A stretch of 64,000 nucleotides of DNA, from contig NZ_CP047393.1 of the NCBI RefSeq assembly GCF_009858175.1, positions 1,674,001-1,738,000 on the forward strand. The letters run 5' to 3'. How positions within the stretch are numbered: position 1 is the stretch's first letter; every line of letters begins with the position of its first letter. The notes under the pieces were generated by a model, which was given only the letters and a program-made list of their open reading frames with translations, had not been told where the DNA came from and did not search any database. This document shows positions 1,279 through 35,264 of this stretch, piece by piece. The DNA comes from Pontibacillus sp. HMF3514 (GTDB taxonomy: Bacteria; Bacillota; Bacilli; Bacillales; BH030062). The position numbers and the translations under genes were made by a program.

Positions 1279-2005
1279 AATGGCAGTTATGTGGAATAAC
1301 TGTTTTAGTGAGAGAGGCGGTTCCGTTGCTATTGTGGAGTACGGTGGGCTTGGGAACGGGTTGCTTTCCCCGGACGAACGATCGAGCCTCCTCATACGCT
1401 ACGCTTCTTGCGGGGTCTCGCTCGCCCGTTTTTCCGGAGGAGTCAACCCGTTCCCAAGCCCACCTTAGCCGAATGGAGATTAACGGAACCGCAGCGATAT
1501 GAGGAGGTAATGCTTACGGACATTTGATCCGCTATTTCACCTTAAAATGGTTTTTCTAAAGAGCTTACGGACATTTATTCCGCTAATTGCTGCAAATCAC
1601 CTTAATAAAGAGCAATCTGTCACAAATAAGGTACCATATGTCCGTAACGAACCTCGAAATACCTTTAAAGTTCAAAATAACGGAACAGATGTCCGTAAGG
1701 GTTAGAGCTCAAATAACTAGGGTCCGTTAACCTCCATAAATGCAAAGGGGTGAAGGAAACGGCAAACTCCAGTGGTAGCAAAGGGCTGACGAGATCCCGC
1801 AGAGAGCTTGCGAACGAGGAAGCTGAAAGTAAATAATGAAGATCGACTAAGACCGCCACATCGTGTGGAAACGTCGACCTACCCCACGTCGTGTGGGGCA
1901 GCAGGAGGCTTGCCGTTTCAATGAACCCCTTACTCTTTTCCAGCAACGGACCTCCACTGCACATTATCTCGATTCCAAGTCTTCAACATAAGGGGGCTTT
2001 AATGG
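1279..2005 (+). repeat. Composite intergenic repeat, copy A
   Basis: A 727-bp intergenic element with no credible gene. Module 1 is bounded by GCGGTTCCGTT (1317-1327) and its exact complement 1482-1492; inside it the 18-nt arms 1346-1363 and 1444-1461 are perfectly complementary. A spacer with four copies of TTACGGACAT (two direct at 1514 and 1565, two inverted at 1638 and 1689) follows. Module 2 has GAAACGGCAA (1756-1765) pairing with TTGCCGTTTC (1910-1919) and two internal hairpins (CCACA/TGTGG and CCCCAC/GTGGGG). The right end carries CCAAGTCTT and AAGGGGGCTTTAATGG, shared with the other copies. Short open frames inside (for example 1280-1468 and 1665-1964) follow the palindrome and are not genes. 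Confidence 0.9.
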
Positions 2006-2239
2006 AATAAGAAAGCCTAATAGAAAAGTTTAGAATAAATAGAATATATTTCTTGAAATGAATTTTGATTTTCTGTTTTACACTCCGTTATTTGGGGAAT
2101 GAGGCAAAAAGGCTTGATCTTTAAAACTCATTAATAATGATCAGGTAATTTCCTACATTTAAATAAACTGGTTGCCATGGGAAAAAGGTGAAAACATCGG
2201 GATCTAGGTATGTATCATCACGAACTTTTGATGAAGTTG

Positions 2240-2248
2240 TGATATAAT
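2240..2248 (+). promoter_or_regulatory. Extended -10 promoter for divIB
   Basis: TGATATAAT matches the extended sigma-A -10 (TGnTATAAT). No good -35 hexamer is seen 17 bp upstream, which is common for extended -10 promoters. Transcription would begin near 2255, placing the hairpin 2261-2290 at the 5' end of the mRNA. Confidence 0.5.
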
Positions 2249-2260
2249 TTTGATATGCAT

Positions 2261-2290
2261 ATGAAGCGGCATCCTGGTATGCCGTTTCAT
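2261..2290 (+). other. 5' hairpin ahead of divIB
   Basis: ATGAAGCGGCAT (2261-2272) pairs with ATGCCGTTTCAT (2279-2290) through 12 bp with one G-U pair and a 6-nt loop. No T-run follows, so it is not an ordinary terminator. It may be a 5' stabilising stem or a protein site. Confidence 0.5.
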
Positions 2291-2324
2291 TATGTAAAAA
2301 TTTAATTGTCTAGGGGAACATTCC

Positions 2325-3113
2325 ATGGCAGAGAAGAAAATTGTATCTATAGAAGATCGTATACCGAAACTCAAAGAAAAACGTAAAAAAAAGGCAAACC
2401 GACGACTCGTCTTGTATTTGTCTCTTTTCTTTTTACTGATTGTAGTCATACTATATCTTCAATCATCCTTAAGCAATGTAAGTACCATAAACGTTAAGGG
2501 AAATACAAACATAAAAAAGGAAACGATTGTATCTTTGAGTGGGTTATCAACCGAAGATAACTTTTGGAAAGTTGATACAGATGCAATACAAAAGAAAGTT
2601 AACGAGCATTCAGAAGTCAACTCCGTTAAAGTTGAAAAGGACTTTCCATCAACAATTTCCATTCAAGTGAATGAATTTGAACGAGTAGGTTATGTACAAA
2701 AAAATGGGGCTTATTATCCGATCCTTGAAACAGGAGAGAGTTTAACCTCATATAGTCTTTCTTCTCCTGGTAGTGATGCACCATTGTTAAGAGGATGGGA
2801 AAAACAGACGTACTTAGAAGAAATGACTCGTGAACTAAGGCAGTTACCAAGCAGTGTAACTAGACAAATCTCTGAATTGTACTGGACACCTACAGAGAAG
2901 AACCCTTATAAAATTCATTTATACATGAATGACGGGTTTGAAGTCGAAGCATCCATTCGAAATTTTTCTGAGAACATGAGAACCTATCCATCGATTGTGT
3001 CTCAATTAGATCCAGGTCAAAAAGGAATAATCCATATTGATGTAGGAGCTTATTTTGAGGCCTATCCAAGTTCAGAGGCTGAGGGAGAGAGCAATAATGA
3101 AGATAACCGGTAA
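2325..3113 (+). CDS. divIB: Cell division protein DivIB (FtsQ)
   Basis: A 262-residue bitopic membrane protein of the divisome, the Gram-positive FtsQ, which forms a subcomplex with DivIC and FtsL and regulates septal wall synthesis. The basic cytoplasmic N-terminus (about residues 1-24) is followed by one transmembrane helix (about 25-46), then a POTRA domain beginning near VSTINVKGNTNI, a beta domain, and an acidic Ser/Glu-rich tail. The ATG at 2325 has AGGGGAA upstream. It is the first gene of a tightly packed group, and its 3' end overlaps the next gene by 17 bp. Confidence 0.93.
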   Translation: MAEKKIVSIEDRIPKLKEKRKKKANRRLVLYLSLFFLLIVVILYLQSSLSNVSTINVKGNTNIKKETIVSLSGLSTEDNFWKVDTDAIQKKVNEHSEVNSVKVEKDFPSTISIQVNEFERVGYVQKNGAYYPILETGESLTSYSLSSPGSDAPLLRGWEKQTYLEEMTRELRQLPSSVTRQISELYWTPTEKNPYKIHLYMNDGFEVEASIRNFSENMRTYPSIVSQLDPGQKGIIHIDVGAYFEAYPSSEAEGESNNEDNR

Positions 3114-33602: not shown

Positions 33603-34206
33603 TATAAATGCACTTCAATTAAGTCCTAAGAAACCGTTCCAGTGGTCTTCAGGAATACTTTCTCCTGTTTATTGTGATAATCGTTTAGTGATGAGCTATG
33701 TGGATGTACGTAAAACTGTAACAAGAGAACTAGCTAATACAATAAAAGAGGATTTCCCTGAAGTAGAAGTTATAGCTGGTTGTGCCACAGCTGGCATTCC
33801 TCATGCTGCTTTCGTAGCTGATCAATTAAATTTGCCAATGGTATATGTACGTGATAAGGCAAAGAGCCATGGTAAACAAAACCGTATTGAAGGGCATATA
33901 GAAGAGGGACAAAAAGTAGTGGTCATAGAAGATTTAATTTCCACTGGAAAAAGTTCTATTCAAGCAGCTAAAAGTTTACAAGATGAAGGCTTGAATGTTC
34001 TAGGAGTTTCAGCCATCTTCACTTATGGGTTAAAAAAAGCTGAGCAAGCTTTCCAACAAGAATCCCTTCCACATGTTGCGTTAACGAACTTTGCTGAGCT
34101 GCTGACTTATATGACGGATCATGGTCACTTGGAGCTTGAAGAGAAAGAGCGACTTATGCAATGGAGTGAAGATCCGAATGCGTTTTCCTTAACATACCAG
34201 TCTTGA
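33565..34206 (+). CDS. pyrE: Orotate phosphoribosyltransferase
   Basis: A 213-residue enzyme attaching orotate to PRPP. The PRPP-binding motif is VVVIEDLISTGKSS, and the flexible catalytic loop has VRDKAKSHGKQNRIEG. ATG 33565 is preferred because AAGGAG lies upstream and the N-terminus aligns with B. subtilis; the frame to 33538 is inside pyrF. It is the last recognised gene of the operon and completes de novo UMP synthesis in this window. Confidence 0.95.
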   Translation: MRREQQVAKVLYDINALQLSPKKPFQWSSGILSPVYCDNRLVMSYVDVRKTVTRELANTIKEDFPEVEVIAGCATAGIPHAAFVADQLNLPMVYVRDKAKSHGKQNRIEGHIEEGQKVVVIEDLISTGKSSIQAAKSLQDEGLNVLGVSAIFTYGLKKAEQAFQQESLPHVALTNFAELLTYMTDHGHLELEEKERLMQWSEDPNAFSLTYQS

Positions 34207-34278
34207 GAACCTTGCCATTTTCAGTAAGCAAGTGTACAATCATGACAAAGCATGAATCCTAAAGGCAGTGATACGAAT

Positions 34279-34551
34279 ATGTCCTTCAAAAGACAAGCTT
34301 TGATTATGGTTGGTAATGCAGTGATTGGATTATTTACATGTTATTTATATTTGTATTTTTGGATTGCATTTTCCTTTAATGGTTCGATCATTAGTATAGA
34401 AGCATTAATGAGCCTGTTGATTTCTCTGTTAGTATTTGGAGTATTTAACGCTCTTGTGATCAAAGAGCATAAAAAAGTAGGCTGGATCTATGCTGCCACT
34501 ACTTATATCGGAACCATAGCACTATTTATTTTGATATTCTCAGTTTCGTAA
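34279..34551 (+). CDS. Hypothetical small membrane protein
   Basis: A 90-residue protein (99 if the upstream ATG at 34252 is used) with three predicted membrane segments: about residues 7-27, 34-54 and 68-88. I do not recognise the family. ATG 34279 is chosen because AGGCAGTGA lies about 8 bases upstream, while 34252 has no Shine-Dalgarno. It follows pyrE by 72 bp without an intervening terminator and is closed by a strong terminator, so it may be the last gene of the pyr transcript. No charged or catalytic motif suggests a role. Confidence 0.6.
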   Translation: MSFKRQALIMVGNAVIGLFTCYLYLYFWIAFSFNGSIISIEALMSLLISLLVFGVFNALVIKEHKKVGWIYAATTYIGTIALFILIFSVS

Positions 34552-34604
34552 TAGATATATAAATGATAAGTTAACACGATAAATTATTCTAAATTATAGG
34601 ATAC

Positions 34605-34640
34605 CCAGAGATCATTATGATCTCTGGTTTTTATTTTATA
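34605..34640 (+). terminator. Intrinsic terminator of the pyr transcript
   Basis: CCAGAGATC (34605-34613) and GATCTCTGG (34619-34627) form a perfect stem followed by TTTTTATTTT. Confidence 0.92.
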
Positions 34641-34672
34641 AAAGGTTTTTTATGTTAAATGTTATTCAATTA

Positions 34673-35264
34673 AATGGCAGGATTGTTGAAGACTTGAAAC
34701 TGAGAAGAGTCCGTTGCTGTTGAGTAATTTGTTGCGGTCAGTGAAACGGCAAGCCTGTTGTTGCCCCACACGACGTGGGGTAGTTCTACGTTGCCACATG
34801 ATGTGGCGGTTTTAGTAGAACCTCCATTGTATAGCCTCCTCGTTCCTGCGGGGTCTCGTCTTGCCTTTGCTACCACGACAGTTTGCCGTTTCCTTCCCTC
34901 CACGCGATTATGGAAACTAACGGACCATAATTTGGCTATCCCACCTCATGTTGGTTGGAAATCATATTCAGAGAAGTTGTTCAGAGCCTTGTCATGATAG
35001 GGTTATACTACCTGGAATCAGAACACCTCATCCCAAAACTAAGGCGGTTCCGTTAATCTCCATTCGGCTAAGGTGGGCTGTGGAACGGGTTGACTCCTCC
35101 GGTAGAAAGGGCGAGCGAGATCCCGCAGGAACGAAGTGACGAGGAAGCTCGATCGGTCTTCCGGGGAAAGCAACCCGTTCCACAGCCCGCCGATCTGCAC
35201 AAAAGCAACGGAACCATACGCACATTATCTCGATTCCAAGTCTTCCAGATAAGGGGGCTTTAGT
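34673..35264 (+). repeat. Composite intergenic repeat, copy D
   Basis: A 592-bp element between the pyr operon and rqcH. The outer ends are inverted: GAAGACTTG (34688-34696) with CAAGTCTTC (35237-35245), and CCGTTGCT (34711-34718) with AGCAACGG (35204-35211). Module 1 (GAAACGGCAA near 34742 with TTTGCCGTTTC near 34880) includes the hairpins CCCCACACGACGTGGGG and CCACATGATGTGG. Module 2 has 18-nt arms GGGCTGTGGAACGGGTTG (35075-35092) and CAACCCGTTCCACAGCCC (35171-35188), again perfectly complementary and again a different variant. Confidence 0.88.

Follow-up and report, generated by a model that had tools for sequence, protein, structure and literature searches.

The 64,000-nucleotide (nt) stretch of the Pontibacillus sp. 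HMF3514 chromosome studied here (the window; NZ_CP047393.1, positions 1,674,001 to 1,738,000, or G000:C1:1674001-1738000 in the single 3,976,892-bp contig of this genome, G000) carries four full copies and a shortened fifth copy of a large non-coding repeat element. These elements are probably the non-coding cassettes of an integron-like Bacillales system and are exchanged in place by site-specific recombination, the most likely enzyme being a tyrosine recombinase of 280 amino acids (aa), INT280. The right end of the element is homologous to the sites of gene-cassette arrays, recombinants centered on the core occur in those arrays, sites of this type are associated with INT280 relatives, and different element bodies lie between locus-specific half-sites. 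We are evenly divided on the wider proposition that INT280, cassette sites with a GGGCGC core and dyad sites with a TGGCCC core make up an undescribed integron-like system of Bacillales, and that Pontibacillus has more than 100 single-cassette loci whose contents are swapped while their landing half-sites stay fixed.

The right end of the element is a cassette-type site

The site TTATCTCGAATTCAAGTCTTCNNNNTAAGGGCGC recurs in a single orientation in gene-cassette arrays of this genome, and the right end of the element is a variant of it with GGGGGC. The parts of the right end, namely an extended arm TTATCTCGAWTYCAAG, a half-site CTTCNNNNTAA, the core GGGGGC and an opposite half-site, make up a complete cassette-type site. 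Profiles built from the dispersed ends alone likewise matched isolated sites that are not part of elements (40.6 bits at G000:349217, 40.7 bits at 1109017).

The arrays in G000 lie at 331-350 kb, 1109-1127 kb and 2365-2372 kb, with sites on one strand, few on the other, and mostly 0.4-3 kb between them; similar arrays are present in G001, G002 and G007 and, from a different family, in G080. Of 66 intervals between neighboring sites, 59 had their longest open reading frame (ORF) in the array direction and 5 had it in the opposite direction, whereas 2 had none of at least 60 aa; the intervals come from seven array stretches in four species, with one interval of >4 kb left out. Of ten array ORFs tested, seven matched Pfam families (GNAT, HAD/PNK3P, HIT, NUDIX, histidine phosphatase, phosphoribulokinase/uridine kinase family, and barstar). 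A variable hairpin begins at GGGCGC. Its minimum free energy averages -10.7 kcal/mol, versus -4.3 kcal/mol when the tails are shuffled, and is below the shuffled value in 155 of the 178 sites; 94 of these 178 sites are followed by a T-run. The array sites have CTTCNNNNNANGGGCGC in common; a conserved GTT at the core was not seen, by eye only.

Comparison of the 85 array sites of the genus gave 8 pairs that share the upstream side only, 18 that share the downstream side only and 3 that share both, the pairs not all being independent. Identity in the 8 upstream-sharing pairs is 0.80-1.00 upstream and 0.28-0.45 downstream, and switches directly after GGGCGC in four of them; five of the 18 downstream-sharing pairs switch at -1 to 0. 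The cleanest recombinant, within G000, is the pair L133:4943 and L135:15103, in which identity is 1.0 upstream through GGGCGC and 0.28 beyond.

Near the arrays there is also a dyad site, TTATTC-N7-TGGCCC-N7-GAATAA, whose arms and spacing are those of the left end of the element. INT280 fragments adjoin dyad sites at L138:10469-11141 and L152:8960-9214.

Different bodies occupy shared sites in a sister species

The genome G002 is ~90-93% identical to G000 in the syntenic stretch and, because its INT280 copies match in identity and contig position, is judged to be Pontibacillus marinus BH030004 or something very close to it. The comparison covered 597,500 bases in parts of three G002 contigs, where 15 of the 118 paired-end copies of G000 (see below) have both flanks syntenic; 13 of these sites are occupied in both genomes and two in G000 only. 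The pair at L105 could not be parsed, leaving 12 orthologous pairs for comparison. Outer half-sites proved to be locus-specific on both sides: orthologue similarity was 0.81 versus 0.70 for shuffled pairs on the left and 0.85 versus 0.71 on the right, values that 0 of 2000 shuffles reached in either case. Inner right halves were not locus-specific (0.79 versus 0.80; 1509 of 2000 shuffles reached the observed value). The bodies between these halves had a similarity of 0.10-0.62 to their orthologue versus 0.63-0.99 to the best other G000 copy. L089 and its G002 counterpart at C5:145302, for example, have CCGTTAAATGGCAG on the left and TTTAGTCGAATAA on the right in common, but different elements between. 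As locus-specific outer halves surround different bodies, the locus must be older than its content, with the change at or just inside the cores.

These comparisons bear on the idea that the repeats are structured-RNA or 3'-end processing elements under selection, whose mobility is historical. Such a role would fit the strong hairpins, the Bacillaceae-1 RNA matches (RF01690) inside three window copies, and the gene context of the family, in which 89 of 118 copies lie 3' of a same-strand gene-like ORF (median 78 nt past the stop, n = 89) and only two lie between divergent genes. The gene-end bias fits purifying selection against harmful insertions too, however, and bodies that differ strongly between sister species at shared sites are contrary to a conserved local RNA function. 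We regard this explanation as highly improbable.

INT280 and its relatives

INT280 is encoded inside the first array (L133:5109-5951, which is G000:337109-337951). It is XerA/XerD-like and, as read by eye, retains the R, K, HxxR, H and Y residues of tyrosine recombinases. Its score with NF040815 (tyrosine recombinase/integron integrase, XerA) was 220.4, the cut-off being 220, but it failed the integron-integrase test (TIGR02249, 103 bits versus a cut-off of 265). The best solved chains were XerD and XerA/XerC-like, and IntI4 aligned over 65 residues. INT280 relatives are intact in G000, G001 (two) and G002 (two) and broken in G003 and G080; in G004-G007 none was found above Xer-level similarity.

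Genomes in GTDB yielded 71 loci with INT280 relatives, spread across many Bacillales genera, two of them (L192 and L193) belonging to the genus itself. A profile trained on the arrays of the genus and of G080 gave 254 matches of at least 12 bits in the 71 loci versus 0 in reversed sequences, and when iterated on these loci gave 644 versus 0. Counting both strands (355 plus, 188 minus), sites of at least 14 bits are present in 68 of the 71 loci, with three or more in 58; many near-palindromic sites are matched on both strands. A strict core-site regular expression matched 176 times on the integrase strand and 22 times on the opposite one, the reversed controls giving 13 and 7, and the dyad form TTC-N7-TGGCCC-N7-GAA had 24 matches versus 1 in the control. 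Among 45 of the loci, a GGGCCA site lies ≤260 nt past the integrase gene in 7, and a cassette-type site lies 142-169 nt upstream in 14. Relatives with ~62% identity are encoded on large plasmids of Sporosarcina psychrophila and Peribacillus simplex (L263, L264); their specificity may differ.

We infer that INT280 is the enzyme. The same sites could instead be served by another one, either a three-gene tyrosine-recombinase set (L134:173-3826 or L139:8391-13556), which we take to be Tn554- or RIT-like, or the host XerC/XerD. Both three-gene sets lie in or near array regions, and G007 has elements with no INT280 detected. On the other hand, INT280 relatives lie within or next to arrays of several species and genera, neither three-gene set was fully matched in five array stretches of relatives, and the 20 kb surrounding the set at 2393-2398 kb yielded no site. 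A different enzyme therefore seems to us quite unlikely.

The first of these regions (L134:173-3826, or G000:352173-355826) comprises three adjacent tyrosine recombinases of 541, 386 and 303 aa beside the first cassette array. The second (L139:2548-13556, or G000:2387548-2398556) encodes, one after another, three tyrosine recombinases (415, 742 and 569 aa) and a protein of 184 aa. Large ORFs of 929 and 697 aa follow, which by eye are DNA methyltransferase-like and helicase-like; the region is perhaps a mobile defense island.

A family of more than 100 copies with sharp common limits

The right-end pattern CNAGTCTTCNNNATAAGGGGGC, with up to three mismatches, had 83 + 67 = 150 matches in the genome versus 1 for a backwards control; part of the 150 are array sites rather than elements. 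Genome searches with copies 4, 1 and 3, in which the best 40 of 174, 176 and 155 first-look candidates were scored, reached mostly different sets of loci. Pairing of left and right ends, accepted only at distances below 1 kb, gave 118 non-overlapping copies, in 113 of the 117 loci retrieved and in the window. These are 214-795 bp long (median 610) and total 70,567 bp, or ~1.8% of the 3.98-Mb genome. Plasmids had no match to copy 4.

In the alignment of the 111 copies that could be parsed, the left end reads TTATTC-N7-TGGCAG-N7-GAATAA and the right end TTATCTCGAWTCCAAGTCTTC-NNN-ATAAGGGGGC-TTTAATGGAATAA. Conservation drops sharply 13 nt outside the left core TGGCAG and the right core GGGGGC. Per-position relative entropy at the left end is 0.75-1.66 bits across the 13 outer positions and 0.00-0.19 beyond them; at the right end it is 0.13-1.19 bits across 13 positions (the 11th being low) and 0.02-0.17 beyond. 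Covariation between left and right outer halves is weak, 70 of 2000 shuffles reaching the observed value. The first-pass annotation would have given up the idea of a distinct class had the genome held only these five copies with no shared boundaries; clearly, it holds many, with sharp common limits. That annotation had seen a distinct non-coding repeat family with shared boundaries, and this part of its interpretation stands. Structured RNA, its other suggestion, is only part of the element (RF01690 in three of five window copies), and both the right-end match to cassette-array sites of the same genome and the replacement of content at fixed sites were beyond its reach.

An ordinary miniature inverted-repeat transposable element (MITE), spread by some transposase acting on inverted ends and with its bodies later homogenized by RecA gene conversion, would explain several features of the family. 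The element ends are imperfect inverted repeats, more than 100 similar copies would offer ample substrate for conversion, mosaic combinations of left and right types exist (ends being typed by the best-matching end query), and the outer halves are too conserved for random targets. Against this, no target-site-duplication signal was found in the 111 copies (199 versus a shuffled mean of 186 and maximum of 255), the right end is homologous to sites beside recombinases, and the change of type starts right inside the left core, where ~20 nt of homology is left. RecA conversion between copies is possible, but would have to stop at cores with ~20 nt of homology. On balance a MITE origin is unlikely.

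The right-end pattern with at most one mismatch had 46 matches in G007, 16 in G004 and 13 in G006. Most of the right-end matches listed for G001 and G007 (G007:C9:13538, for example) read ATAATGGGGC in place of ATAAGGGGGC, a species-wide change beside the core. G005, a sister species, had no right-end match, yet among the matches listed were five module-like repeats with 75-79% identity. The hairpin modules are thus separable from the element ends and would be cargo.

Inspection of 24 right-end loci, mostly over ~5 kb on the inner side, found end pairs more than 1 kb apart only at L098 and L110 (array sites); no search for transposase families was made. The 3,035-bp end pair at L098, considered as a long coding relative, proved to be a copy truncated on the right, with chromosomal genes and then a second copy after it, and was rejected. 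An apparent inversion at L060 was an artefact of contig orientation.

The copies in the window

Direct reading of the sequence bore out the four full copies and the shortened fifth at the places first reported; their features are given in Table 1. The copy limits are those of the profiles, including the 13-nt outer half-sites, with copies 3 and 5 shifted by 1-2 bases by eye. Motifs had been claimed for both hairpin modules. Those of the first module, GCCTCCTC and GCGGGGTCTCG, are present in copies 1-4, whereas those of the second module are exact in some copies only, reading CGAGATCCCGC and GAGGAAGC in copies 1 and 4. Likewise, the copies do belong to one two-module family, but not to a single plan, as the order and orientation of the modules vary: by self-BLAST, the module in first place in copies 1 and 2 is the inverted form of the module in second place in copies 3 and 4. 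There are therefore several architectures within the family. Single-strand folds of copies 4 and 3 beat 100 shuffles (z values in Table 1). Elsewhere in the window, the pyr operon region (22371-24719) has three PyrR binding-site RNA elements (RF00515), which are ordinary.

Table 1. Element copies, end sites, hairpin modules and RNA matches, in window coordinates.
Feature	Position	Strand	Basis
Element copy 1, whole, with both outer half-sites	1268..2010	+	Left and right profile matches 1268-1319 and 1953-2010
Copy 1, left-end site	1268..1299	+	Format TTATTC-N7-TGGCAG-N7-GAATAA (here TTATTT); profile 46.6 bits
Copy 1, first hairpin module	1319..1491	+	Stem GGTTCCGTTGC / AACGGAACC; limits by eye; inverted, it is the second module of copies 3 and 4
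Copy 1, second hairpin module	1721..1952	+	Limits by eye; self-BLAST
Copy 1, Bacillaceae-1 RNA match	1831..1897	+	Rfam RF01690, 63.1 bits (gathering 35)
Copy 1, right-end site	1965..2010	+	Extended arm, GGGGGC core, 13-nt outer half; inside 65.6-bit profile match 1953-2010
Element copy 2, whole	11012..11703	+	End profiles
Copy 2, Bacillaceae-1 RNA match	11523..11589	+	RF01690, 63.8 bits
Element copy 3, whole	20174..20771	+	End profiles and sequence; fold z -10.4
Copy 3, second hairpin module	20544..20715	+	Stem GGTTCCGTTAATC / AAGCAACGGAACC; limits by eye; BLAST
Element copy 4, whole	34662..35271	+	End profiles; fold z -4.6
Copy 4, outer left half-site	34662..34674	+	13-nt conserved block, 13.8 bits in the 111-copy alignment
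Copy 4, first hairpin module	34709..34925	+	Stem GTCCGTTGC / CTAACGGAC; limits by eye
Copy 4, Bacillaceae-1 RNA match	34765..34831	-	RF01690, 64.5 bits
Copy 4, second hairpin module	35046..35215	+	Stem GGTTCCGTTA / AACGGAACC; limits by eye
Copy 4, right-end site	35225..35271	+	TTATCTCGATTCCAAGTCTTC-CAG-ATAA-GGGGGC and outer half; inside 71.1-bit profile match 35210-35271
Copy 4, outer right half-site	35259..35271	+	10.6 bits in the 111-copy alignment (13 positions)
Element copy 5, with an internal deletion but both ends present	57797..58069	+	Profile matches 57798-57849 and from 58009

Proposed exchange and its difficulties

In the scheme that we favor, each repeat would be a non-coding cassette between two recombination sites. 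The right end would be a cassette-type site, and the left end, by its arms and spacing, a dyad, attI-like site. A tyrosine recombinase, most likely INT280, would cut at the GG-rich cores and replace or move the inner segment, and the 13-nt outer half-sites would remain in the chromosome during the exchange. The route may be excision and reinsertion or a double-site cassette exchange. The landing half-sites would originally have been dispersed by some other step.

Several observations weigh against exchange of this kind. The two outer halves together hold 24.4 bits in the 111 copies (13.8 left, 10.6 right), more than the ~15.7 bits that, by our own estimate, ~150 independent targets in a ~4-Mb genome could supply at most; they therefore came with the elements or were repeats beforehand, and an origin of the halves as random targets is rejected. 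The inner left halves of the 12 orthologous pairs are slightly above shuffled pairs (0.67 versus 0.60; 116 of 2000 shuffles reached the observed value). In the arrays, the other four of the eight upstream-sharing pairs switch at -4, 16, 20 and 31, and of the downstream-sharing pairs 12 of 18 switch 26-31 nt upstream and one at +10; the switches 26-31 nt upstream are put down to the shared conserved arm. The plasmid-borne INT280 relatives are without such sites nearby (0 at L263; 1 at L264, where the reversed control also had 1), and G007 (46 right-end matches), G004 and G006 carry the right-end pattern with no INT280 relative found beyond Xer level.

The structure of the ends adds a further difficulty. 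Scored with the array model (112 copies), the joined inner ends had a median of 34.7 bits, the right end as found 40.1 bits and the left end 4.1 bits. Since the joined inner ends are no better than the right end alone, we rejected the notion of the element as a single divided site. The right inner end still scores 32.4 bits with an unrelated flank, so it is this part that carries most of the array-type signal. The left end, at 4.1 bits, is accordingly a different kind of site and not half an array site.

Empty sites in relatives, which the first-pass annotation had proposed to look for, also failed to appear in clean form. Matches listed for the 32-nt dyad pattern in G000, G002, G003, G004 and G006 start at two or three mismatches; the pattern matched left ends in bulk because these have the same format. 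The two G002 sites without an element also differ in flanking bases and so are not clean empty sites. No clean empty site was found at L017, and L035 is nearly empty in G002, but 57 nt are also missing there. A 30-nt version of the dyad pattern, whose spacing was wrong, matched only at control level and was dropped.

Comparison with known systems

Integron integrases (IntI) have an extra segment as a feature, and the integron R box contains GTT, the attC boxes R' and R'' reading RYYYAAC and GTTRRRY. INT280, in contrast, is XerA/XerD-like, falls below the TIGR02249 cut-off and has no sign of the extra segment, and the core here is GGGCGC. The system is not filed as an integron because the integrase test failed. 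In other respects it resembles integrons, the definition being taken from PMC8618304: there is a tyrosine recombinase, and there are one-direction arrays of small, mostly one-ORF cassettes with one recombination site each, a second kind of site in dyad form, some recombinants that switch at the core, and hairpin potential at the site. The IntegronFinder 2.0 paper reports a single complete integron for Firmicutes, that of Limnochorda pilosa, together with a few clusters of attC sites lacking integron-integrases, or CALIN (PMC9024848).

Like MITEs, the dispersed elements are short, have a high copy number and inverted ends, and show no transposase; unlike MITEs, they have no target-site-duplication signal, and their right end resembles a recombinase site with relatives in gene-cassette arrays. 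Convergent GC-rich hairpin modules between genes are also characteristic of repetitive extragenic palindromes and bacterial interspersed mosaic elements (REP/BIME) with their REP-associated tyrosine transposases (RAYT). The elements described here differ in being bounded by conserved ends related to cassette-array sites. Bacillaceae-1 RNA is above its gathering score inside three of the five window copies, but takes up 67 nt of elements of ~610-740 nt and is not the mobile unit. In Acinetobacter plasmids, pdif modules consist of XerC/XerD sites around genes. There too, genes are exchanged between Xer-like sites, whereas the present system has a separate recombinase family and chromosomal arrays.

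A 2026 paper (PMC12901181), which cites Loot et al. 2024, treats attG sites as sites for integron cassettes in bacterial genomes outside integrons. The likeness is that single cassettes are dispersed in the chromosome; the difference is that here one non-coding family occupies >100 sites, with conserved outer half-sites and content that differs in place between species.

Implications

In titles and abstract openings, preprints and most subscription papers lying outside the search, no Bacillales cassette system of this kind was found. To our knowledge, the dispersed elements would be the first case of non-coding cassettes replacing each other at fixed chromosomal sites, if the reading given here is true. 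The IntegronFinder 2.0 paper describes integrons as extremely rare in Firmicutes (PMC9024848). A cassette system that follows integron logic with a XerA-like enzyme, and has sites in many Bacillales genera, would, if real, change this picture of rarity. It would also be an independent case of how recombinase-cassette systems arise.

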